This document shows positions 3,091-12,909 of a stretch of DNA of 12,909 nucleotides, one piece after another. Source of the DNA: Oscillospiraceae bacterium (GTDB taxonomy: Bacteria > Bacillota_A > Clostridia > Oscillospirales > Oscillospiraceae); the NCBI GenBank assembly GCA_017396725.1, contig JAFQLA010000145.1, forward strand, positions 1 to 12,909, written 5' to 3'. Position numbers and translations under genes: made by a program. Each line of letters starts with the position of its first letter. Position 1 is the first letter of the stretch. The notes under the pieces are model-generated. The model had not been told where the DNA came from. It made no database searches and saw only the letters and a list, made by a program, of their open reading frames with translations.

Positions 3091-3861
3091 ATGTCCAAAC
3101 AGAACAACAAAAAGGCTAAGATGGCAAAGTCCAATCAGTCTGTGAATAATACACTTAAGATGCTGATTGTGGGCTGCCTTGCGGAGTGCTATCTGCTTTT
3201 GGCCTATAACTTCTTTGCTCACGGCACTGTGCAGTGGATCGTGACCCTTTCCAAGGTGTTCGGTGTGCTGCGCTATGTGGGCCTGGCTGCAGCTGTGGTC
3301 TGCGCGGTGCTGGCCTTCTGCTGGAAGAGCGAAAAGAAAAAGAAGTCCTATGCCCTGTGGGGCGTTGGGGTGAGCCTTTTCCTTGCCGTTACCTCTTTTT
3401 TGATGATCGCTTACTATCCCGCGGCTACGGATATTCTCTGCGTGGTCGTGCCGCTTCTGATGCTCTTCGGCGTGGTGTGCCTGCTCTATCCCCGTGATTT
3501 CACGGTGAGTGTTGCTGCCCTCGCAATTGCGCTGGCAGATCTTTGGCTCCTTCGCCGCAGCTACATGATGCATCCCACTATCCTCACCGTGCTGACGGTT
3601 GGCGCTATCGTGGTCGTTGCCGCAGCTTTCGTGCTGGTGATGCTGGTAAAGAAGAACGGCGGCCTTTGGATCTGCAAAAAGAACAAGGTCCGTGTGTTCT
3701 CTAAAAATTGCAATTACGGTATCATGCTTGCCGCTATCGTGGTCTCCGCGGCAGCTATGGCCGTGTCTCTTGCCGTGTTTTCCGCCGCATTTTATGTGAT
3801 GTGGGCGCTGGGCGTAGTTCTCTTCGCTCTGGCTGTTTACTACACGGTCAAGCAGGTTTAA
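3091..3861 (+). CDS. Polytopic membrane protein of unknown function
   Basis: I do not recognise this 256-residue protein. The N-terminus is strongly basic and polar (MSKQNNKKAKMAKSNQ), followed by about eight hydrophobic segments at roughly 22-42, 58-78, 88-108, 112-133, 136-155, 163-186, 208-231 and 233-253. Basic loops such as KSEKKKKS (79-86) and KKNKVRVFSK (196-205) suggest cytoplasmic faces. No transporter signature or catalytic motif is visible. GGAGG at 3076-3080 lies ten bases before the ATG, and the gene has its own promoter and terminator, so it is a single-gene unit divergent from the apbE operon. Similar anonymous multi-span proteins are common in Oscillospirales genomes, though I cannot confirm homology here. 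Confidence 0.8.
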   Translation: MSKQNNKKAKMAKSNQSVNNTLKMLIVGCLAECYLLLAYNFFAHGTVQWIVTLSKVFGVLRYVGLAAAVVCAVLAFCWKSEKKKKSYALWGVGVSLFLAVTSFLMIAYYPAATDILCVVVPLLMLFGVVCLLYPRDFTVSVAALAIALADLWLLRRSYMMHPTILTVLTVGAIVVVAAAFVLVMLVKKNGGLWICKKNKVRVFSKNCNYGIMLAAIVVSAAAMAVSLAVFSAAFYVMWALGVVLFALAVYYTVKQV

Positions 3862-4035: not shown

Positions 4036-4746
4036 ATGAAGTTATCCGAATCTGTTGTCATGATCACCGGCGCAGGTCAGGGCATTGGCGCTCAGGCTGC
4101 CCGTCAGTTTGCTGCGCAGGGCGCAAAGGTCGGCCTTCTGGCCCGCACGGAATCCAAGGTGCAGGCGATCTGCGACGAGATCCGCGCTGCCGGCGGCGAT
4201 GCGATTGCTATCCGCTGCGATGTGGCCAACGAAGAAGATGTAAAGAACGCGGTTGCCAAGATGGAAGAAGTCTATGGCCGCGTAGATGTAGTGGTCAACA
4301 ATGCCGCGTCTTTCCGCGGCGGTCTTGCTGAAGAAATGAGCCTTGAGGATTGGCAGTTTGTCACCCGCATCATCCTTGACGGTACATTCCTTTGCTGCAA
4401 GTACACTATCCCCGGCATGAAGAAGCGTGGCTATGGCCGCATTATCAATATTTCTTCCGCTGCCATCAGCCATCCTTTCAAGACCTATAGCTGCTATGCC
4501 GCAGCCAAGGCGGGTCTTCTGGCCTACACCAAGACCGTGCAGGAAGAAGTCCGTGAATACGGCATCAATATCAACTGCCTGATCCTTGGCCTCATCAACA
4601 CCGATGAGATCAAGAAGAGAAACGATTTCGACTGGACCAAGCTGCTGCAGCCCGAAGATGTGGCCAACAGCATTTTGTTCCTTGCGTCCGATGCGGGACG
4701 CGGTTATAAGGGGGCCGCGCTGGAATTATTCGGCGATTACCAATAA
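4036..4746 (+). CDS. Short-chain dehydrogenase/reductase (SDR, FabG-like)
   Basis: A 236-residue classical SDR expected to oxidise an alcohol or reduce a ketone with NAD(P)(H) in the cytoplasm. The nucleotide-binding TGAGQGIG is at 11-18, NNAA at 88-91, the catalytic serine in NISSAA (Ser140/141), and YAAAK gives Tyr154 and Lys158. Arg37 after the second strand (LLAR) is typical of NADP-preferring enzymes. The C-terminus is short and lacks the usual GxxxxxDGG ending. GGAGG (4019-4023) lies 12 bases before the ATG. It is the first gene of an operon, 35 bp ahead of E1-alpha, so it probably makes or consumes the substrate of the dehydrogenase complex, for example a diol/ketol pair. An acetoin or butanediol dehydrogenase role is possible but not shown by the sequence. 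Confidence 0.9.
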   Translation: MKLSESVVMITGAGQGIGAQAARQFAAQGAKVGLLARTESKVQAICDEIRAAGGDAIAIRCDVANEEDVKNAVAKMEEVYGRVDVVVNNAASFRGGLAEEMSLEDWQFVTRIILDGTFLCCKYTIPGMKKRGYGRIINISSAAISHPFKTYSCYAAAKAGLLAYTKTVQEEVREYGININCLILGLINTDEIKKRNDFDWTKLLQPEDVANSILFLASDAGRGYKGAALELFGDYQ

Positions 4747-4781: not shown

Positions 4782-5756
4782 GTGCTTAGTGTTGAAACTT
4801 TGAAGCAGATGTACGCTGACATGGTCGAGATCCGCCGTTTCGAAGAGCGTATCGACGAGTATTCAAAGAAGGGTGAGATCCCCGGCTTTGTGCATCTGGG
4901 TGTAGGACAGGAAGCTGTGCAGGTAGGTACTGTTCGCGCACTGAAAGTGACTGACTATAAGTATCCTGACCATCGCTGCCACGGTGCTATCAGCCTTTTC
5001 GGTAGTGATAAGAAGGCCGTTATGGCAAAAATTTTTGGTAAGGCTACCGGTATCAACGGCGGTCGCGGCGGTTCTATGCACATTACCGACCTGAAGGTCC
5101 GCAATATGGGCAACAACGGTATCCAGGGTTCCAATGTGGTATCCGTTCTTGGCCCTGCGTTCTATTCTCAGCTGAAGAAGACGGATGATGTATCCGTAGT
5201 CTGGATGGGCGACGGTACTCTGGGCGAAGGTGCCTGCCATGAGAGCATCAACATGGCTGCTACCTGGAAGCTGCCCGTAGTATATGTTCTGGCCAACAAC
5301 CATTACGCTATCGCCACCCACTATACCGAAGCTTACAATGTGTCCCAGCTGGCACAGTGGGCTGACGGTTATGCCGTTCCCAACGAAGTGGTAGACGGCA
5401 ACGATGTTGTAGCTGTTTACGAAGCTATGACCCGTGCCGTTGAGCGCGCTCGCCGCGGTGAAGGCCCCACTCTGCTGGAGCTGATGACCTACCGTTGGCA
5501 GGGCCACTTCGCAGGTGACCCCGCAGCTTACCGTCCCGATGACGAAGTTGCTTACTGGAAGGATCGCTGCCCCATCAAGAAGACCAGAAACGACCTGCTG
5601 GCTCAGGGCGTGAGCGAAGAAGAGCTGACCGCTCTGGAAGAAAAGGCCTATGCTGAGATCGAAGAACTCATCGATTACGCACGCAAGAGCCCGCTTCCCA
5701 AGGCTGAAGATGCGATGAAGCATGTTTATGCAGATCGCGAAGTGGAGGTGCACTAA
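4782..5756 (+). CDS. Thiamine diphosphate-dependent dehydrogenase E1 alpha subunit (AcoA/PdhA type)
   Basis: The alpha subunit of the E1 decarboxylase/dehydrogenase, which binds thiamine diphosphate and works as an alpha2-beta2 tetramer. The 324-residue length fits AcoA. The cofactor motif starts at GDGTLGEG (143-150) and ends at ANN (171-173), and VRNMGNNGIQGSN (106-118) matches the conserved glycine-rich loop. YRWQGHFAGDP (237-247) is the phosphorylation-loop region, and its GHF-x-GD form favours the acetoin branch over pyruvate dehydrogenase. The position normally read as HRGHG is DHRCHG (63-68). The start is GTG at 4782 with GAGGAG (768-773 of the 4000s) eight bases upstream; the ATG at 4809 lacks a ribosome site and would remove conserved sequence. 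The gene overlaps the next by one base. The substrate could be acetoin, a branched 2-oxoacid or another diketone/ketol. Confidence 0.92.
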   Translation: MLSVETLKQMYADMVEIRRFEERIDEYSKKGEIPGFVHLGVGQEAVQVGTVRALKVTDYKYPDHRCHGAISLFGSDKKAVMAKIFGKATGINGGRGGSMHITDLKVRNMGNNGIQGSNVVSVLGPAFYSQLKKTDDVSVVWMGDGTLGEGACHESINMAATWKLPVVYVLANNHYAIATHYTEAYNVSQLAQWADGYAVPNEVVDGNDVVAVYEAMTRAVERARRGEGPTLLELMTYRWQGHFAGDPAAYRPDDEVAYWKDRCPIKKTRNDLLAQGVSEEELTALEEKAYAEIEELIDYARKSPLPKAEDAMKHVYADREVEVH

Positions 5757-6739
5757 TGGCTAGAAATCCTAAGATTGCGTTCAGCAAGGCTCTGAACGAG
5801 GCGCTCATCCAGTCCATGGAGCGCGATGAAAATGTGTTCATCATCGGTGAAGACGTTGCCAAGATGGGCGGCGACTTCGGTATCACTCAGGGCATCTGGC
5901 ACCGCTGGCCCGAACGCGCCAAGGATACTGCTCTTTCCGAGCAGGCTATCATCGGCCTTTGCACCAGCGCTTCCGTCTGCGGTCTGCGCCCCGTAGCTGA
6001 GATCATGTTCGCAGACTTCGTCGGCGTTTGCTTCGACCAGATCGTTAACAACGCTGCCAAGGCTCGCTTCATGTACAATGGCGAAGCCGGCGCACAGCTG
6101 GTTATCCGCGCCTCCACCGGCGGCGGCATCCGCTGCGCATATCATCACTCCCAGTGCATTGAGCCCTGGCTCATGAATGTTCCCGGCCTCGTGATCGTGG
6201 CTCCCTCCACTCCTTACGAAGCCAAGGGTCTGCTGGCTGCCTCCATCAAGGACAATAACCCCGTTATCTTCCTTGAACACAAGGCTCTCTACAACATGAA
6301 GGGCGAAGTTCCCGAAGAATACTACGAACTGCCCCTCTACAAGGCAGAAGTCAAGCGTGAAGGTGCTGACGTTACCGTATTTGCTACCATGATGATGACC
6401 GGCATGGCTCTTCAGGCTGCTGAAGAACTGGCTAAGGAAGGCATCAGTGTTGAGGTCGTTGACCCCCGCACCCTCTTCCCCCTGGATAAGGAAACCATCA
6501 TCAACTCCGTTGCAAAGACCGGCCGTCTCGTGATCGCTCAGGAAGGCCCCAAGTTTATGGGCGCCGGCGCAGAAATCTCCGCAATGATCAGCGAAGATCT
6601 CTTCGAGTACCTGAAGGCTCCTGTCAAGCGTGTTACCTCCGAAGATGTTCCCACCGCATACGCTCCCTGCATGGAAGACTTCGTTATGCCCAATGTGGAA
6701 AAGATCAAGGCAGGCATCCGCGCTGTTATGGCTGAATAA
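5756..6739 (+). CDS. Thiamine diphosphate-dependent dehydrogenase E1 beta subunit (AcoB/PdhB type)
   Basis: The beta subunit of the same E1 (327 residues). It shows GEDVA (31-35), the cofactor-activating glutamate in SEQAIIG (Glu62), AEIMFADF (81-88), the active-site histidines in YHHSQ (129-133), EHKALYNMKGEVPE (174-187), and the C-terminal transketolase domain with VEVVDPRTLFPLD (232-244) and KTGRLVIAQEG (254-264). Its ATG shares one base with the E1-alpha stop (TAATG), and its GGAGG (5744-5748) lies inside E1-alpha, so the two subunits are translationally coupled and made in equal amounts. It is the last gene of this transcript; the E2 partner is encoded separately at 9898. Codon use is strongly biased (CCC, AAG, GAA, GCT), which suggests high expression. 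Confidence 0.93.
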   Translation: MARNPKIAFSKALNEALIQSMERDENVFIIGEDVAKMGGDFGITQGIWHRWPERAKDTALSEQAIIGLCTSASVCGLRPVAEIMFADFVGVCFDQIVNNAAKARFMYNGEAGAQLVIRASTGGGIRCAYHHSQCIEPWLMNVPGLVIVAPSTPYEAKGLLAASIKDNNPVIFLEHKALYNMKGEVPEEYYELPLYKAEVKREGADVTVFATMMMTGMALQAAEELAKEGISVEVVDPRTLFPLDKETIINSVAKTGRLVIAQEGPKFMGAGAEISAMISEDLFEYLKAPVKRVTSEDVPTAYAPCMEDFVMPNVEKIKAGIRAVMAE

Positions 6740-6842: not shown

Positions 6843-7562
6843 TCAGCAGTTCACTGCCTTGGCGGGGCCTTCCACCATAATGGTGCGGGCGGTGACCAGA
6901 TTATGCAGGCGCAGCGTGCCGTGAGCAAACTGACCTACGATCTTGGCCAAAGCCTCGTCATCACCGCGCAGCCAGATGCTGACGACCCGCTTATCCTTAG
7001 CGGCAGCCATGTTGGCGGCGAGGACCTCTTCATCAAGGGAGAGGGTGCCGATGGGGGAGAAGCTCCATGCCCACTGAATGTCCTCGGCTTTGATGCCGTT
7101 ATCCAGAAGCAGCTTTACGGCATCGGGCACAGCGCGGGCGGAATCCAGCGCGGCATAAGCAAGGCTGGTCTTGCCCACGATAGCCACATTGCCTTTGCCG
7201 GCTTTGGCAGCGCAATTGGGGCACATCCCGTCGGACACGCCGAAAGCGTAAGCGTCGCCATCTTTGATGCCGCAGGCGCCTTCGCCGGCAAATGCCATCT
7301 CATAAGCGCCTACGGGGTCATCGTACATCAGCTCCACAGCGGGGAACTGGTGCATGCCGCGGAATTCGCGGGAGATATTTACAAGGCCGCGGCCGCCGAT
7401 GAGGGCATCCAGCATCAGCTTGATGCTGGACCAGCCGCCGGCGCATTTCGCGCCCATATCCAGCGCTACGGTTTCGCCCTTTTCCGTTACGCAGCAGCAG
7501 TTGGCGGGGGCGGCAGCGCAGATCTCTTCAAACTTTTTCTTAGCGTATACAGAATATTCCAT
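6843..7562 (-). CDS. Short, divergent Mch-family paralogue (methenyl-H4MPT cyclohydrolase-like)
   Basis: This 239-residue protein shares the Mch N-terminal core ALDMGAKCAGGW (33-44), matching DMG-x-K-x-x-G-x-W in both full-length paralogues here, plus GLVNI (59-63) and the C-terminal-half segment VVSIWLRGDDEALAKIV (193-209). It is about 80 residues shorter than Mch. In the segment SFSPIGTLSLDEEVLAA (167-183), which I align with the family active-site helix, the Arg and Glu become Glu179 and Ala182. The following region of about 30 residues (the RGNAPIAPI part of the partner) is absent. It is cysteine-rich: CCC at 22-24, Cys40, Cys97, and CPNC at 114-117. The ATG at 7562 follows AAAGGA, 26 bp after the stop of the upstream paralogue. 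A catalytic Mch activity is unlikely; a binding, scaffolding or different hydrolase role is possible. The family assignment is my own alignment by eye. Confidence 0.65.
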   Translation of the reverse strand: MEYSVYAKKKFEEICAAAPANCCCVTEKGETVALDMGAKCAGGWSSIKLMLDALIGGRGLVNISREFRGMHQFPAVELMYDDPVGAYEMAFAGEGACGIKDGDAYAFGVSDGMCPNCAAKAGKGNVAIVGKTSLAYAALDSARAVPDAVKLLLDNGIKAEDIQWAWSFSPIGTLSLDEEVLAANMAAAKDKRVVSIWLRGDDEALAKIVGQFAHGTLRLHNLVTARTIMVEGPAKAVNC

Positions 7563-7588
7563 GCTGTTTATCCTTTCTGATCCTAAGC

Positions 7589-8554
7589 TCAATAACCCAT
7601 GAAGTCCCGCTCCAGCACACCGTAATGGATCATGCCGATGGGGAAGAAGTGGTTGGTGCGAATATTGACGAAGTTGATCTTGCAGGGAGCGTCCCAGTCG
7701 CGGGGAACCTTGGCCCAGTCGCAGCCGGACTCGCGGAACATCTCCTCAAAGGGAACGCCGAAAACGGTATCGTTCTTGCACATGGGGAGCCTGTCGGCAA
7801 GACGGAGGATAGCGTCATCCTCGCAGTCGATGAAAACGGTGCTTTCCTGACCGTAGATCAAACCGTCATTGACGCGGCCCATGGCGACGATCTCATCGTC
7901 TTCAATGGAGACAACAGGGGCAAAGCCCATAGCCTGCACAATGGAATTGATGGGGAAGTCGGCATGGTCACCCAAAGTGGCGAAGGTTTGCTCCAGATTG
8001 CGGGCTACGATCTGCACAGAGCCGACTACGGTAGAGGTGGCGCTGGCGATGAGATAGAGATCCTTGGGGTCCATATTGATGCGGGAGCAGATGATCTCGC
8101 TGAGCTCTTCGTCGGGCATGGTGGTGATCTGCAGATGACCTACAGCCTTTTTGGCTTCGGTATCGCGGTAGGTGACCCGTTCTGCCCAGTGGTCGGTGCC
8201 GGTGATGGCACGCAGGGGACCGGAAACGGACTGATAGTGCCCGTGGTAAGGGACATAGAGACCTGCGATATGAGCGCCCAGCTGTGTCACATCGGGTCGG
8301 TCGATCTGGATAACGGCGGTGGGAACGATGTGGTTGCCGATGTACATGGACTGATAGACCAGTTCGCCCATGCCGCCCATGCAGGTGTCGGTAAAGAGTT
8401 TGGCTGCCTTCCAGCCCCCCTTGGCCTTGACGCCCATGTCGATGACGGTAGTGCCGTTTTTCAGCTTGATGACATCAACATTCAAAGCCTCGGCGTTGGG
8501 GATGATCTCTTCTTCCACGATCTTCGCCGCCATATTGTTGAGGGAATAGCTCAT
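7589..8554 (-). CDS. Methenyltetrahydromethanopterin cyclohydrolase (Mch) family protein, copy A
   Basis: A 321-residue protein close to the usual Mch length of about 315-325. Archaeal Mch hydrolyses methenyl- to formyl-tetrahydromethanopterin. The recognisable blocks in order are TTVIDMGVKAKGGWKAAKLF (35-54), SGPLRA (111-116), MPDEELSEII (146-155), DPKDLYLIASATSTVVGSVQ (162-181), ARNLEQT (184-190), AMGRVNDGLIYG (224-235) and GVPFEEMFRESGCD (266-279). The Arg/Glu pair that I recall as catalytic in archaeal Mch is kept as Arg185 and Glu188. AGGAGG at 8564-8569 sets the start at 8554; an upstream in-frame extension has no ribosome site. It is first in a two-gene operon divergent from copy B. 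The bacterium shows no other methanopterin gene here, so the true substrate is open. Confidence 0.82.
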   Translation of the reverse strand: MSYSLNNMAAKIVEEEIIPNAEALNVDVIKLKNGTTVIDMGVKAKGGWKAAKLFTDTCMGGMGELVYQSMYIGNHIVPTAVIQIDRPDVTQLGAHIAGLYVPYHGHYQSVSGPLRAITGTDHWAERVTYRDTEAKKAVGHLQITTMPDEELSEIICSRINMDPKDLYLIASATSTVVGSVQIVARNLEQTFATLGDHADFPINSIVQAMGFAPVVSIEDDEIVAMGRVNDGLIYGQESTVFIDCEDDAILRLADRLPMCKNDTVFGVPFEEMFRESGCDWAKVPRDWDAPCKINFVNIRTNHFFPIGMIHYGVLERDFMGY

Positions 8555-8578
8555 GGATGAATACCTCCTGTTAATCGA

Positions 8579-8621
8579 GTTTGTTGCGGTACAACGCAGG
8601 GATCGCTGCAAATCAACAAAC
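8579..8621 (-). promoter_or_regulatory. Leader hairpin of the minus-strand Mch operon
   Basis: GTTTGTTG (8579-8586) and CAACAAAC (8614-8621) form a perfect 8-bp outer stem. Inside it, GCAG (8596-8599) pairs with CTGC (8606-8609). The structure falls in the predicted 5' leader and ends about ten bases before AGGAGG. A role in translation control is an inference. Confidence 0.35.
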
Positions 8622-8659
8622 AGGTGTGGTGATTGCGGTTTTTTCCCGCTGACAAGCTT

Positions 8660-8689
8660 ATTTTACATGATATATACAATGGTTGGCAA
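8660..8689 (-). promoter_or_regulatory. Promoter of the minus-strand Mch-like operon
   Basis: On the minus strand TTGCCA (8684-8689), an 18-bp spacer and TAAAAT (8660-8665), with TG directly before the -10. The predicted leader is about 100 nt. Confidence 0.5.
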
Positions 8690-8765
8690 GGAAAATTTGC
8701 TTGCAAAACACCTCTCTTGTAGGACAAAGTGCAAGGATGTGCAAAAACGAAAAAAACCTTGCCAA
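8683..8765. repeat. 9-bp inverted repeat over both divergent -35 boxes
   Basis: TTGGCAAGG (8683-8691) and CCTTGCCAA (8757-8765) are perfect inverted copies separated by 65 bp. Each contains the TTGCCA -35 box of one of the two divergent promoters. Confidence 0.6.
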
Positions 8766-8786
8766 ATCGGGCAAAACGGCTATAAT
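8759..8786 (+). promoter_or_regulatory. Promoter of the Mch copy B-E2 operon
   Basis: TTGCCA (8759-8764), a 16-bp spacer and a consensus TATAAT (8781-8786). Transcription would start near 8793, leaving a leader of about 105 nt before the ATG at 8898. Confidence 0.7.
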
Positions 8787-8897
8787 GAAAATATATGTAT
8801 GCTGGGGATAGGGGGTATTATACTCTTCTCTGCGTATAGGTGCGGTCTTGTGAAAGACGAATTCACCCAAAAATTATTTTTTTAATTGGAGGGATTT

Positions 8898-9863
8898 ATG
8901 TTTAGTCTGACAGAAAACACGATGGGCGTCGTCAAAGAGATTCTGGCCAATCCCGAAGCCATCGGCTGCGAGGCAAAGAAGCTGGAATGCGGCGCTACTG
9001 TCGTGGACATGGGCATCAACTGCAAGGGCAGTTGGAAAGCAGCTGTGCTTTTTACCCGTGCTACTATGGGCGACCTTGGTATGGTGAGCCTGGGCGAATT
9101 CAAGCTCAATGAGGAATTCACTTTCTCCTCTGTTGAAATGTTTATCGATCAGCCTATGATCGCCTGTGTCGGCGCCGAAATGGCCGACTGGAGATTGGGT
9201 GACGGTGAATATGCCACCATTGCTTCCGGTCCCGCCCGCGCGCAGGCCGTGGTGGATACCGACCATTACATCCATTGCACTCCCTACCGTGACGGCTGCC
9301 GTGATGCTGCCGTTGTTTGCCTGCAGGATGTCCGTTATCCCTCTGAAGAGCTGGCAATGGAAATTGCCAATGCCTGCCATGTAGCGCCTGAGAATACTTA
9401 CATCCTTGTGAGTAACTCCACCTGTATCGCAGCTTCCATGCAGGTTTCCGCCCGCATCATCGAGCAGACCTGCAATAAGCTTTTCCGCGGCGGCATCATG
9501 AGCCCCGAACAGATCGTGATGGCCCGCGGCAACGCGCCAATCGCGCCCATCGTTGCCGATGAAAACAAGACCATGGGCCGCATCAATGACGCTCTGATTT
9601 ACGGCAGCACCGTGGAACTTTGGGTAGACTCCGACGATGAGACCATCGAAAAGGTTGCCCCCACTCTGGTAGCCAAGTACTCTTCTCCTCTTTACGGTAT
9701 TCCCTTCGAGAAGATTTTTGTGGACGCCGGCTGCAATTTCTTCAACATCCCTCTGGATGTTCACTCTATCGGCCGCGTCATGATCCACAATGTCAACACC
9801 GGTAAGGCAATCAGCTGCGGTGAGATTAACTACGAAGTTCTGGAAAAGAGCTTCCTTAACTAA
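8898..9863 (+). CDS. Methenyltetrahydromethanopterin cyclohydrolase (Mch) family protein, copy B
   Basis: A second full-length Mch homologue, also exactly 321 residues but clearly diverged from copy A. It keeps ATVVDMGINCKGSWKAAVLF (33-52), IASGPARAQA (108-117; archaeal form GSGPARAL), PENTYILVSNST (164-175), ARIIEQT (185-191) with the presumed catalytic Arg186 and Glu189, MARGNAPIAPIV (208-219), TMGRINDALIYGS (225-237) and YGIPFEKIFVDAGCNFFNI (266-284). It looks closer to archaeal Mch than copy A, especially in the SGPAR and GRIND segments. The ATG at 8898 lies five bases after GGAGG (8888-8892); the in-frame TTG at 8886 overlaps that site and is rejected. The E2 gene follows after 34 bp with no terminator between them, so the two are probably one transcript. 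The literal methanopterin reaction is doubtful in this organism. Confidence 0.85.
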   Translation: MFSLTENTMGVVKEILANPEAIGCEAKKLECGATVVDMGINCKGSWKAAVLFTRATMGDLGMVSLGEFKLNEEFTFSSVEMFIDQPMIACVGAEMADWRLGDGEYATIASGPARAQAVVDTDHYIHCTPYRDGCRDAAVVCLQDVRYPSEELAMEIANACHVAPENTYILVSNSTCIAASMQVSARIIEQTCNKLFRGGIMSPEQIVMARGNAPIAPIVADENKTMGRINDALIYGSTVELWVDSDDETIEKVAPTLVAKYSSPLYGIPFEKIFVDAGCNFFNIPLDVHSIGRVMIHNVNTGKAISCGEINYEVLEKSFLN

Positions 9864-9897
9864 CAACTGTTCTATCGAATTCAAGGAGGATATATAA

Positions 9898-11487
9898 ATG
9901 GCTTATAACATTCCCATGCCCAAGTTCGGCCTTTCTATGGAAGAAGGCACCATCGCTTCCTGGCTGGTAAAGGAAGGCGACACCGTCGTTAAGGGTCAGG
10001 CTATCGCTGAAGTTAACTCTGAAAAGCTCACCAACAACGCCGAAAGTGAATTTGACGGCGTAGTTCTCAAGATCCTGCTTCAGGAAGATGAAACCGCAGA
10101 ATGCGGCACTCCCATCGCCCTCATCGGCCCTGCCGGCGCAGATGTCAGCGGTTTTGGCGGCGCAGCAGCACCTGCCGCAGCTCCCGCTCCCGCAGCAGCA
10201 CCCGCAGCACCCGCTGCAGCTCCTGCAGGCACCAACATGATCCCCATGCCCAAGTTCGGCCTCTCCATGGAAGAAGGCACCATCGCAGCTTGGCTGGTAA
10301 AGGAAGGCGACACCGTCGTTAAGGGTCAGGCTGTTGCTGAAGTCAACTCCGAAAAGCTGACCAATAACGCTGAGAGCGAATTTGACGGCGTGATCCTCAA
10401 GATCCTGCTTCAGGAAGATGAAACCGCAGAATGCGGCACTCCCATTGCTATCGTTGGCCCCGCAGGCACGGATGTCAGCGGTGTGACCGTAGGTGCAGCT
10501 CCCGCTGCAGCACCCGCAGCCGCTCCCGCCGCAGCTCCTGCTGCCGCTCCCGTTGCAGTTGCCGCTCCCGCAGATGTGAAGATCACTCCCCGCGCCAAGA
10601 AGTATGCTGAAGAAAAGGGCCTCGCTTACGATCATATCGTAGGTACCGGCATCGGCGGCGCCATCACCATTGATGACGTGAAGAAGAATGGCAAGCCCGC
10701 AGCTGCTGTTGCCGCAGCTCCTGCTGCCGCTTCCACCGCTGCTCCTGCTCCTGCCGCTGCTCCCGCTGCCAAGGCAGCTCCCGTTTACGCAACCGTAAAC
10801 GAAGGCGACGAAGTCCGCAAGATGACCTCCATGGAACAGGCCGTCTGCAAGGGTATGTACAACAGCCTCCAGGGTACCGCTCAGACCACTCTGGGTACCG
10901 AAGTCAACGTGGAAAACCTCACCAAGGTTTACAAGTCCCTCAAGGGCAAGTACACCGCTGCCGGCGTGAAGCTCAGCTACACCGCTCTGCTGGTGAAGGC
11001 CGTTGCTATGGCTATCGAAAACCACGAAGTGATCCGCACCCAGTATGTGGATGAAAAGCACATCAAGATCGTCAGCAAGATCGATATCGGTATCGCTGTT
11101 GACGTTCCCGGCGGTCTCATCGTTCCTGTGATCCGCGATGCTAACCTGAAGGATCTGCGCACTATCTGCATGGATCTGGCTGATATCTCTGAACGCGCCA
11201 AGGCCGGCAAGCTCACCGGTAACGATCTGGGCGGCGCCTGCACCACCATCACCAACCTCGGTATGTTCGATATCACCTACTTCACTCCCGTTCTCAATGC
11301 TCCCGAAACCACGATCCTGGGCGTTGGCTCCATCATTGAAAAGCCCGTGATCCGCGACGGCGGTATCTTCATCGAGCATGTGATGAACATGAGCCTGACT
11401 CACGACCACCGTGTAGCCAACGGCGCTCCCTGCGCCCGCTTCCTCCAGGAAGTCAATAAGAACCTGCAGGACTTCAAGTGGTGCTAA
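9898..11487 (+). CDS. Dihydrolipoamide acyltransferase E2 with two lipoyl domains
   Basis: The E2 core of a 2-oxoacid/acetoin-type dehydrogenase complex (529 residues); it takes the acyl group from E1 and passes it to CoA. In order: lipoyl domain 1 (about 1-80, lipoyl-lysine Lys43 in NSEKLTN), an Ala/Pro linker (89-111), lipoyl domain 2 (about 113-190, Lys153), a second linker (199-225), a peripheral-subunit-binding domain (227-262, TPRAKKYAEEKGL and GTGIGGAITIDDV), a third linker (267-296), and the catalytic domain (300-529). TITNLGMFDITYFTPVLNAPE (450-470) is typical. The active-site motif reads DHRVANG (503-509), with Asn508 where Asp is usual. AGGAGG (9884-9889) supports the start. Acetoin E2 proteins usually carry one lipoyl domain. 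The matching E1 subunits are at 4782-6739; no E3 is present in the window. Confidence 0.93.
   Translation: MAYNIPMPKFGLSMEEGTIASWLVKEGDTVVKGQAIAEVNSEKLTNNAESEFDGVVLKILLQEDETAECGTPIALIGPAGADVSGFGGAAAPAAAPAPAAAPAAPAAAPAGTNMIPMPKFGLSMEEGTIAAWLVKEGDTVVKGQAVAEVNSEKLTNNAESEFDGVILKILLQEDETAECGTPIAIVGPAGTDVSGVTVGAAPAAAPAAAPAAAPAAAPVAVAAPADVKITPRAKKYAEEKGLAYDHIVGTGIGGAITIDDVKKNGKPAAAVAAAPAAASTAAPAPAAAPAAKAAPVYATVNEGDEVRKMTSMEQAVCKGMYNSLQGTAQTTLGTEVNVENLTKVYKSLKGKYTAAGVKLSYTALLVKAVAMAIENHEVIRTQYVDEKHIKIVSKIDIGIAVDVPGGLIVPVIRDANLKDLRTICMDLADISERAKAGKLTGNDLGGACTTITNLGMFDITYFTPVLNAPETTILGVGSIIEKPVIRDGGIFIEHVMNMSLTHDHRVANGAPCARFLQEVNKNLQDFKWC
9913..10152 (+). repeat. Lipoyl-domain tandem repeat, copy 1
   Basis: Encodes E2 residues 6-85. 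It is highly similar in DNA to 10243-10482 with a period of exactly 330 bp, including identical stretches of more than 40 bases. Confidence 0.85.
10243..10482 (+). repeat. Lipoyl-domain tandem repeat, copy 2
   Basis: Encodes E2 residues 116-195. The differences from copy 1 are mostly silent third-position changes, which suggests a recent duplication or gene conversion within the gene. Confidence 0.85.
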
Positions 11488-11655: not shown

Positions 11656-12312
11656 ATGAATAATGTGATCGTAACTTATGAAACTTTTCACGGCAGCGCA
11701 AAAAAAGTTGCACAGGTCATTTCTGAAAGATTGAACTGCAAATGCATTAATGTTGACACTCCCTTTGAGGCAGAAGATCTCAGAGAGTTGGATACTGTGA
11801 TTCTGGTGTTCAATTTCAGAGGCCCGTATACTGCTCAGTTGACCAAGCTGTATCTGAGCCGTGTGAAGGATCAGTTGAAGACCAAGAATATGATCCTTGT
11901 GGGGGAAGGTCTCTTTTCTGAAAAGGAATTTCCCGTTGTGGCAAATGAGATATTTGAAAGCACGCCCTCTAAAACCTTCAACAAATTCTTTGTCAATGGT
12001 CAGCTGCGCGTGGCAACCCTTTTCCCGGAAGAAAAGGCATTGCTGGCTAAATTCAGTGAGCTGACGGGCATGGAAATTAAGGATATGGGCGAGCTGGATC
12101 TTGCCAAGGCGGAAGAAGTGGCAAAAGAGATCGAAAAGCTGCTGGATTCCGAAGAATTCAAAGCTGCAGCAACAGAAGAAACGGCAGCTGCGACCGAGGG
12201 CCAGACCAAATGGGTCTGCCCCCTTTGTGGGTACATTCATTACGGGGAAAATCCCCCTGAAAAATGTCCCCTTTGCAGCGTGCCGGGCAGCACTTTTATC
12301 AAACAGGAATAA
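11656..12312 (+). CDS. Flavodoxin-like protein with C-terminal rubredoxin domain
   Basis: A 218-residue fusion of two electron carriers. The N-terminal flavodoxin-like domain (about 1-165) starts with the FMN phosphate loop TYETFHGSAKKVA (7-19) and has VFNFRGPYTAQLTKL (51-65) in the position of a flavin-contact loop. An acidic Ala/Glu/Thr linker (166-184) joins it to a rubredoxin-like knuckle pair, CPLCGY (188-193) and CPLCSVPGSTF (204-214), expected to hold one Fe(Cys)4 site as in rubrerythrin tails. GGAGG (11645-11649) lies six bases before the ATG. It has its own promoter and terminator. The likely role is low-potential electron transfer or oxygen/peroxide defence through intramolecular FMN-to-iron transfer; the partner is unknown. 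Codon use is more A/T-rich than in the E1/E2 genes. Confidence 0.87.
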   Translation: MNNVIVTYETFHGSAKKVAQVISERLNCKCINVDTPFEAEDLRELDTVILVFNFRGPYTAQLTKLYLSRVKDQLKTKNMILVGEGLFSEKEFPVVANEIFESTPSKTFNKFFVNGQLRVATLFPEEKALLAKFSELTGMEIKDMGELDLAKAEEVAKEIEKLLDSEEFKAAATEETAAATEGQTKWVCPLCGYIHYGENPPEKCPLCSVPGSTFIKQE

Positions 12313-12354: not shown

Positions 12355-12909
12355 TTAGTTCTTCTCGACCTTGCTCAGTTCAAAGACCTTGATGGGAGGA
12401 GTATCGAAAACATGGGTGTCCTTCAGCGCCTTGGCAAGGCGGGCTACCTTCTGGCCCAGGCGGCGGCAGCGGATCATGCCTTCTTCATCGGCAGCGGCGC
12501 CTTCAGCGCCCTTATCCTGGCTCCATACGCTGGCGCCTGCGTACATGCACAGACCGCCGTTGGCAGGAGTGTAACCGTTGGTGTGGAACCAGCCCATGAG
12601 GCTGTTGATCACATGTTCCTGACCGCCGTTGCGGGTGCCGCCGACAGCGATGCAGCCGCCTACCTGCTTGGCGTGTGCGTCAGGATTCTTGCTGAGAACC
12701 ACCCAGCCGCCGCGGAAGCGGGAAAGGAAAGCGCTCATCTGGGGAGTGGGGCACATTTCGTATACGGGGGAGGCAAAGATCAGACCGTCTGCATCCAGGA
12801 CCTTCTGCAGATCATCAGTGATATCATCTTTCCACACGGTGCAGATGGGGCTGTTATCACGCACGCATTTGTTGCAGGCCATGCAGGGATTGATTTTCTT
12901 ACCCTGAAG
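12355..12909 (-). CDS. Iron-sulfur flavoprotein / NAD(P)H-dependent flavin oxidoreductase, 5' end outside window
   Basis: The C-terminal 184 residues are visible and the frame is open through the right edge. The visible part begins LQGKKINPC, so the internal ATG at 12882 is not the start. The cysteine cluster INPCMACNKC plus a later Cys (spacing C-x2-C-x2-C-x7-C) fits the [4Fe-4S] site of iron-sulfur flavoproteins. FASPVYEMCPTPQMSAFLSR and VGGTRNGGQE are the flavin-binding loops of the flavodoxin-like reductase fold. These proteins shuttle electrons between ferredoxin or NAD(P)H and acceptors in anaerobes. The gene is convergent with the flavodoxin-rubredoxin gene and shares its terminator. 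The physiological partner is not evident. Confidence 0.87.
   Translation of the reverse strand, partial: LQGKKINPCMACNKCVRDNSPICTVWKDDITDDLQKVLDADGLIFASPVYEMCPTPQMSAFLSRFRGGWVVLSKNPDAHAKQVGGCIAVGGTRNGGQEHVINSLMGWFHTNGYTPANGGLCMYAGASVWSQDKGAEGAAADEEGMIRCRRLGQKVARLAKALKDTHVFDTPPIKVFELSKVEKN

Follow-up and report, generated by a model that had tools for sequence, protein, structure and literature searches.

A separate branch of the methenyltetrahydromethanopterin cyclohydrolase family recurs beside 2-oxoacid dehydrogenase genes and may serve the breakdown of a pterin-like compound

Methenyltetrahydromethanopterin cyclohydrolase (Mch) is a homotrimer, and a mutant study of the Archaeoglobus fulgidus enzyme reportedly assigned the catalytic role to Arg183 and Glu186; two A. 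fulgidus chains differ at position 186, which is Glu in one and Gln in the other. We analyzed a 12,909-nt stretch of contig JAFQLA010000145.1 from an Oscillospiraceae bacterium (the window), in which three Mch-family genes, here A, B and C, are positioned between the E1 and E2 genes of a thiamine-dependent dehydrogenase; B and C are full length and A is short. We assign B and C to a branch of their own, named class II here, which is a real and recurrent part of the Mch family with a new genomic role and for which we found no earlier description. Class II Mch has very probably been repurposed away from methanopterin one-carbon (C1) metabolism.

A first-pass annotation of the window had placed the three Mch-family genes between E1 and E2, and open reading frames (ORFs) are indeed found there:

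4036..4746, plus strand: short-chain dehydrogenase/reductase (SDR) oxidoreductase, first gene of the module (PF00106, 181 bits)
4782..5756, plus strand: E1 alpha of a thiamine-dependent 2-oxoacid (or acyloin) dehydrogenase (PF00676, 262 bits)
5756..6739, plus strand: E1 beta (PF02779/PF02780; PRK09212 330.8 bits against a cut-off of 321)
6843..7562, minus strand: A, short Mch paralogue of 240 codons with the stop, Glu186 replaced by Pro
7589..8554, minus strand: B, gamma-type class II Mch, 322 codons (PF02289, TIGR03120, tree, residue code)
8898..9863, plus strand: C, alpha-type class II Mch, 322 codons (PF02289, TIGR03120, tree, residue code)
9898..11487, plus strand: E2 acyltransferase with two lipoyl domains and an E3-binding domain (PF00198, PF00364 in two stretches, PF02817)

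The true starts of A, B and C likely lie inside the listed ORFs. PF02289 (cut-off 25 bits) matches each of the proteins, in agreement with the first-pass assignment, with scores of 28.7 for A (residues 31-96 only), 246 for B and 287 for C. For the Mch equivalog TIGR03120 (cut-off 228.8), B (233) and C (259.9) are above and A (14.7) is below; the predicted structure model of A has the Mch fold. The E1 and E2 identities also were borne out by Pfam, with PF00676, PF02779/PF02780 and PF00198 with two lipoyl stretches, and E1 alpha, E1 beta and a lipoylated E2 thus are all present. E1 alpha scores 319.7 bits with TIGR03182, below the cut-off of 393.85, and its best-scoring solved structures are pyruvate dehydrogenase E1 alpha; among the 25 NCBIfam models listed of 37 for E2, none is over its cut-off.

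Genome-level tests were all carried out on relatives (G numbers; their contigs, C numbers). Direct search gave a single genome locus, on contig C65 of the 1.7 Mb metagenome-assembled genome (MAG) SUG1684 (G001), where the match shares 77% identity with B; in the tree comparison, identity to the G001 counterpart is 78% for B and 85% for C. The searched genomes hold 50 full-length Mch genes. The first tree, from which the alpha, beta, gamma and delta groups of class II were taken, included 48 of these, with G1225 and G1090:C10 (residue codes QEREF and QQREH) hidden by longer antisense ORFs; C of the window, overlooked behind such an ORF, was added separately to the data of both trees. Short paralogues were left out of both trees, and Mch fragments in G965, G1184 (C15 and C51) and G1114 (C9 and C145) were excluded from all counts. 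The comparison set was 14 rows with methanopterin context, made up of eight fhc-linked genes, two genes from proteobacteria, three archaeal sequences from the PDB and one haloarchaeal gene with no methanopterin gene in its 1.5 kb flanks; the named controls among the added sequences were mch of Azospirillum and Aquabacterium, from methylotroph gene sets, and archaeal mch of Natronorubrum.

A single branch splits the 39 class II rows from the 14 methanopterin-context rows (support 100/99, 100% of 200 bootstraps). Class II accordingly falls on the other side of this branch and does not group with methanopterin-context Mch. With the very long-branched G449_18156, which was left out of the second tree, the class II side of the first tree is supported at 91/99. 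This gene (G449:C21 18156-19136) encodes a full-length but highly divergent homologue of Mch (100 bits, branch length > 5) that belongs to no class and adjoins a dihydroorotate dehydrogenase-looking protein.

The split is mirrored in the residues. Arg183 and Glu186 are kept in 39/39 class II rows, B and C included, and in all 55 rows when context and class I-like sequences are counted. Glu140 and Phe280 (A. fulgidus numbering) are found together in 14/14 context rows and also in the Mch of G1028 and G1058, while class II has Gln140 in 38/39 rows and His280 in 31, Asp280 in seven and Tyr280 in one; the last is G061, a long, uncertain class II row that retains Glu140. Residues 140 and 280 thus tell the two kinds of Mch apart in every row but one. 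At positions 93/140/183/186/280, B reads H-Q-R-E-D and C reads E-Q-R-E-H. When 120 of the 149 database homologues of B (those listed) are read at the same five positions, three kinds of code emerge, none mixed: [HYF-]-QRED in 103, QEREF in 11 and QQREH in five, with one fragment. The DMG-x(4)-G-x-W block, which the first-pass annotation had noted in A, B and C and which we confirmed by eye, was found by script in 28/38 class II rows of the four groups and 5/7 short paralogues, and in 0/14 methanopterin-context and 0/2 class I-like rows.

We searched the relatives for RFAP synthase (TIGR00144) as a single methanopterin-specific marker. It was not found in 22/22 genomes in which class II Mch is intact and class I Mch is absent (9 + 13; one of the 22, G449, also has the divergent Mch of no class), and it was found in 9/9 genomes with fhc-linked class I Mch. 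G1137 holds both Mch classes, with RFAP synthase ~10 kb from its class I mch. The marker was not found in G1028 or G1058, whose Mch groups with class I apart from fhc genes, nor in G965, which has Mch fragments only. The folate route is mostly present in the searched genomes: FTHFS is found in 32/34 (in G985 by small pieces only) and is missing in G001 and G1042. Of the refuting results named in the first-pass annotation, a full methanopterin pathway did not appear, as judged by this one marker gene in 22/22 relatives.

Gene neighborhoods divide the Mch loci in two kinds as well. Class I loci (G1205, G1015, the first locus of G1137, G985, G1042, G1225, G1166, G1051 and G1125) adjoin fhc-like genes, with a RimK-like gene near 7/9. 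Class II neighbors, in varying sets, are genes for E1/E2, SDR, GntR, lipoate ligase, SsnA, BMP/NCS2/ECF carriers, FMN reductase, FolB, RibD_C and xanthine dehydrogenase (XDH). Gene-family labels are blastp clusters, with Pfam checks on 29 proteins from the relatives (two without a match) and NCBIfam checks on 10. The gene caller retains the longest ORF, which makes the starts of genes and a few entries of the neighborhood tables approximate. The full set of E1 alpha, E1 beta and E2 is found near 23/25 alpha/beta rows compared with 0/9 fhc-linked class I loci, and SDR is near 16/18 alpha and 7/7 beta rows. Seven of these alpha/beta operons hold one alpha and one beta gene, and six loci are from one genus, which leaves far fewer independent cases. 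By genome, and leaving the window aside, 16 of the 23 that have an intact class II Mch combine Mch with E1 genes, and E2 is there too in 15; the sixteenth, G449, has a lipoyl protein instead, and its E1 genes are ~10 kb from its Mch. Since the Mch/E1/E2 arrangement recurs in other genomes, it is not a chance arrangement. With the PF02289 matches, the absence of the marker from the relatives and this recurrence, none of the three results that the first-pass annotation had named as refuting came up, and its proposal of a family repurposed for an undescribed pathway is well supported. The hydrolytic ring opening that it also suggested is a possible reaction, and B and C keep the catalytic Arg/Glu pair.

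The commonest alpha/beta operon is GntR - SDR - Mch - E1a - E1b - E2 - Mch. It is accompanied by lipoate ligase, a BMP transporter and SsnA in G1003, G1066 and G920, and comes without these three in the stretch seen in G1037, G1090 and G1114. G980 has the same operon plus gamma Mch and short Mch, giving four Mch genes, and the window likewise adds A and B. In G815 the order is NCS2 - XDH - SDR - Mch - E1a - E1b - E2 - SsnA - RibD_C - E3; XDH and SDR are missing at the corresponding place in G906, of the same genus. A second gene set, of varying order, comprises gamma Mch, short Mch, FMN reductase, FolB, a BMP transporter and SsnA (G1137, G1265 and G952; G1016 without SsnA in range). A third contains delta Mch with a DadA-type FAD enzyme, Amidohydro_2 proteins, SsnA and ECF parts (G1037, G980 and G1090); a Pterin_bind gene belongs to this set in G1037 and, judged by blastp cluster, in G1090. 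C65 of G001, a 58 kb contig, resembles a catabolic island with three full Mch and one short Mch, two E1 pairs, two E2, SDRs, two BMP transporters, two XDH-like sets, a double FolB, SsnA-type and cytosine-deaminase-like amidohydrolases, and FAD amine-dehydrogenase-like and TrxR-like proteins; chosen genes of G001 were checked by Pfam or NCBIfam and the other names are our own reading. The G001 island also encodes an HpaB-family protein (PF11794/PF03241) beside a FabA-like protein (L007:5875-7356). A small protein is encoded near E3 in the islands of six genomes, grouped by blastp cluster (L018:8387-8734, L008:5057-5398; a TIGR03792 match was checked in one). An island in pieces in G965 (L086, C1 1191300-1211299; Mch, SDR, GntR, SsnA and RibD_C, mostly by eye) probably is a decayed copy.

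Two features that the first-pass annotation had not foreseen are the loss of the catalytic Glu in A and the constant pairing of its kind with the B type. The gamma branch includes B, and a short Mch directly follows in 7/7 gamma loci. Glu186 is found in 0/7 short paralogues and Arg183 in 2/7; A itself keeps the catalytic Arg. A protein search with A, limited in reach, returned only seven homologues (50-95% identity), and their alignment with A has 53 invariant columns; the short paralogues of G1016, G1137, G1265, G952 and G980 were found only via PF02289 or gene tables. A probably is a non-catalytic partner of B, and we infer that the two probably assemble into a hetero-oligomer in which one Mch subunit is active and the other inactive.

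The distribution of PF02289 is sparse and patchy, with matches in 2/250 genomes of the family of G001, 2/295 of the order, 2/391 of the class and 26/398 of the phylum (G001 counted in each); around G815 it occurs in 6/8 genomes of the genus and 6/71 of the family. Such a sporadic distribution would fit ordinary Mch that scavenges methanopterin from neighboring methanogens, or plain horizontal transfer without a new role. We consider this very improbable, given that class II is a separate branch with its own residue code and does not nest inside the archaeal or fhc-linked clade in the tree, that an inactive partner gene is conserved behind gamma Mch, and that similar operons are found across different genomes. 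Among mobile elements, a search of viral contigs for Mch homologues gave no pattern match, and 36 plasmid records carry Mch (27.9-31.6% identity among the 20 listed); of three plasmid records examined, two have the methylotroph gene set and one is haloarchaeal. Database homologues of B include gut genera such as Pseudoflavonifractor, with a gamma-type Mch in the culturable species Pseudoflavonifractor gallinarum.

The wider neighborhood, unforeseen by the first-pass annotation, points to a pterin-, purine- or flavin-like substrate. FolB exceeds the dihydroneopterin aldolase equivalog cut-off of 72 in both loci tested (122 and 107), and RibD_C, Pterin_bind, the ECF-S component PF07155, Bmp and Xan_ur_permease were matched in class II neighborhoods. 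As the best of several readings we tentatively propose, at a chance slightly under even, that class II Mch serves the catabolism of a pterin-like N-heterocycle (pterin, folate or a related cofactor) encoded in sporadic islands. The substrate, every reaction and the order of the steps are as we infer them. The compound would be taken up by BMP-type ABC, NCS2 or ECF transporters; an SsnA-type amidohydrolase would deaminate it, a FolB-type aldolase would cleave the side chain, and a ring carbon would be hydroxylated or oxidized by XDH-like, FAD amine-dehydrogenase-like or SDR enzymes. Having kept the water-activating pair Arg183/Glu186, class II Mch would then hydrolyze a C=N bond at the pterin N5, either in a methenyl bridge, its native chemistry, or in the pyrazine N5=C6 bond. 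Xanthine dehydrogenase hydroxylates C7 of pterin; if C7 were oxidized first, the ring might open at N8-C7 and N5=C6 and release a 2-oxo acid, and a lipoylated E1/E2 would thereby be accounted for. Lastly, the lipoylated E1/E2/E3 complex would turn the released fragment into an acyl-CoA. One database protein, P0050 (465 aa), has a ferredoxin domain (PF12838) fused to a gamma-type Mch; by eye this domain resembles the ferredoxin of amine-dehydrogenase sets in G449 and G980, and the fusion suggests that hydrolysis comes after the oxidation of a C-N bond.

Several observations weigh against the proposed pterin catabolism. The ECF-S protein matches FolT below the cut-off, and another protein that is ECF-S-like has no match in Pfam. 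When the SsnA-type enzyme was compared with solved structures, none of the 41 matched sequences is named a pterin deaminase, and the best matches are methylthioadenosine/S-adenosylhomocysteine (MTA/SAH) deaminase and atrazine chlorohydrolase. FolB possibly is biosynthetic, being found beside ordinary mch in Aquabacterium and near 2/9 fhc-linked loci, and the FolB of G001 lies 17 kb away from the closest Mch. E1/E2 are missing near the four gamma loci with FolB and near 5/6 delta rows. Many rows are related genomes or share an operon, and the counts overstate independence. The search for methanopterin synthesis covered a single marker, and B and C, being over the curated TIGR03120 cut-off, would ordinarily be annotated as Mch.

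The BMP and NCS2 carriers fit purines as well as pterins. In a purine pathway, class II Mch would open the imidazole ring (the N7-C8-N9 amidine) of a deaminated or hydroxylated purine during anaerobic purine fermentation, in line with the Xan_ur_permease and Bmp carriers, the XDH-like and SsnA/guanine-deaminase-like enzymes, and genes of G449 that by eye are dihydropyrimidinase-like and M20 peptidase-like. FolB, RibD_C and Pterin_bind proteins are not known to act in purine degradation, however, and a purine is not known to yield an obvious substrate for a lipoylated 2-oxoacid dehydrogenase, so we regard this route as rather improbable.

Retained C1 chemistry is a stronger contender, albeit still unlikely in our estimate. 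Class II Mch would then hydrolyze a methenyl-tetrahydropterin, based on tetrahydrofolate or on an unusual carrier whose synthesis needs no RFAP synthase, to its formyl derivative, from which formate would be released. The intact Arg183/Glu186 pair and the TIGR03120 scores of B and C are as such an enzyme would have them, and there are partners of the right kind: FhcA/C/D-like genes are on the Mch contig of G449, a Pterin_bind methyltransferase-like gene is beside the delta Mch of G1037, and in G449 and G980 FhcD-/FhcA-like genes are beside SsnA, DadA or BMP genes (SsnA and DadA in G980), which fits a formyl/C1 route and counts against pterin catabolism. Yet Ftr (PF01913) is found in only 6/22 class II genomes without ordinary Mch, four of which have the distant copy only; RFAP synthase was not found in these 22; the folate C1 gene FTHFS is already present in most of the genomes; and neither multiple paralogues per operon nor E1/E2 partners would be needed for a C1 step.

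The Fhc-like genes of G449 (L016/L024, C21 36796-41353; RimK-, FhcC-, FhcA- and FhcD-like) are beside two XDH sets and two Mch genes; FhcB was identified by eye only, and RFAP synthase was not found in this genome. Ftr homologues lie in stretches with SsnA and Zn-alcohol dehydrogenases in G952, G1037 and G1184, with further genes, and in G1056, on a short contig. A distant Ftr family (PF01913, 82-96 bits; L102:9377-10252, L103:9807-10733, L105:9140-10072, L104:3362-4228 and L101:10732-11616) adjoins SsnA-type amidohydrolases and Zn-alcohol dehydrogenases in genomes in which RFAP synthase was not found, and FGGY-kinase-like genes and ECF parts are near four of the five genes. This family is perhaps a second repurposed methanogenesis fold. 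An actinobacterium without methanopterin synthesis genes carries an fwd/ftr operon (PMC7325909).

Returning to pterin catabolism, a more far-reaching and more doubtful version is an anaerobic pathway that dismantles pterin cofactors (folates, biopterin/neopterin, even methanopterin from dead neighbors). Mch-fold enzymes and, in some genomes, Ftr-fold enzymes might there act as degradative hydrolases or transferases, one of them hetero-oligomeric with a dead paralogue, and feed a dedicated lipoyl-dependent 2-oxoacid dehydrogenase. We found no description of a Mch/E1/E2 island or of such pterin catabolism in a literature search that took in few subscription papers. If pterin catabolism is correct, Clostridia-type bacteria, some of gut genera, break down pterin-type cofactors by a route not found described; this would bear on folate and pterin turnover, and enzymes of methanogenesis would have been changed into degradative ones. 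The Mch label given by automatic annotation probably is misleading in the relatives searched.

Two further genes follow E2 in the window:

11656..12312, plus strand: flavodoxin-domain protein with a C-terminal rubredoxin-like domain (PF12724, PF21349)
12355..12909, minus strand: NAD(P)H-quinone/FMN-reductase-like flavoprotein that runs off the window (weak NCBIfam matches)

The first is a possible electron carrier that might be linked to the module. The second has a counterpart, by eye, in G001 (C65 20489-21160), beside a CodA-like gene, an alpha Mch and E2. Upstream, positions 3091-3861 encode a 256-aa protein that is membrane-like by eye and has no Pfam or NCBIfam match, and the minus-strand genes at 926-2828 are putatively Gx-transporter-like, NusG-II-like and ApbE-like.

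Three described systems come closest to the locus. Like known Mch (PF02289, TIGR03120; PDB 1qlm, 4fio, 4gvq/4gvr), B and C match the profiles over their whole length and retain the catalytic Arg and Glu, and the fold is present in the model of A; class II differs as a separate branch with Glu140 changed to Gln and Phe280 to His or Asp, with an inactive short partner, with E1/E2/SDR neighbors, and with RFAP synthase not found in the relatives. The methanopterin/Fhc clusters of methylotrophs, such as that on Azospirillum plasmid p2 (fae, RFAP synthase, methylene-H4MPT dehydrogenase, RimK), likewise have mch, but genomes with methylotroph or fhc-linked class I Mch hold RFAP synthase (9/9) and fhc genes, and E1/E2 are near 0/9 of these loci. 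Pyruvate, acetoin and branched-chain dehydrogenase complexes share E1 alpha, E1 beta and a lipoylated E2, with E3 in the G001 and G815 islands; in contrast to them, E1 alpha and E2 of the window are under the NCBIfam equivalog cut-offs among the models listed, and these operons hold Mch and SDR, some with lipoate ligase.

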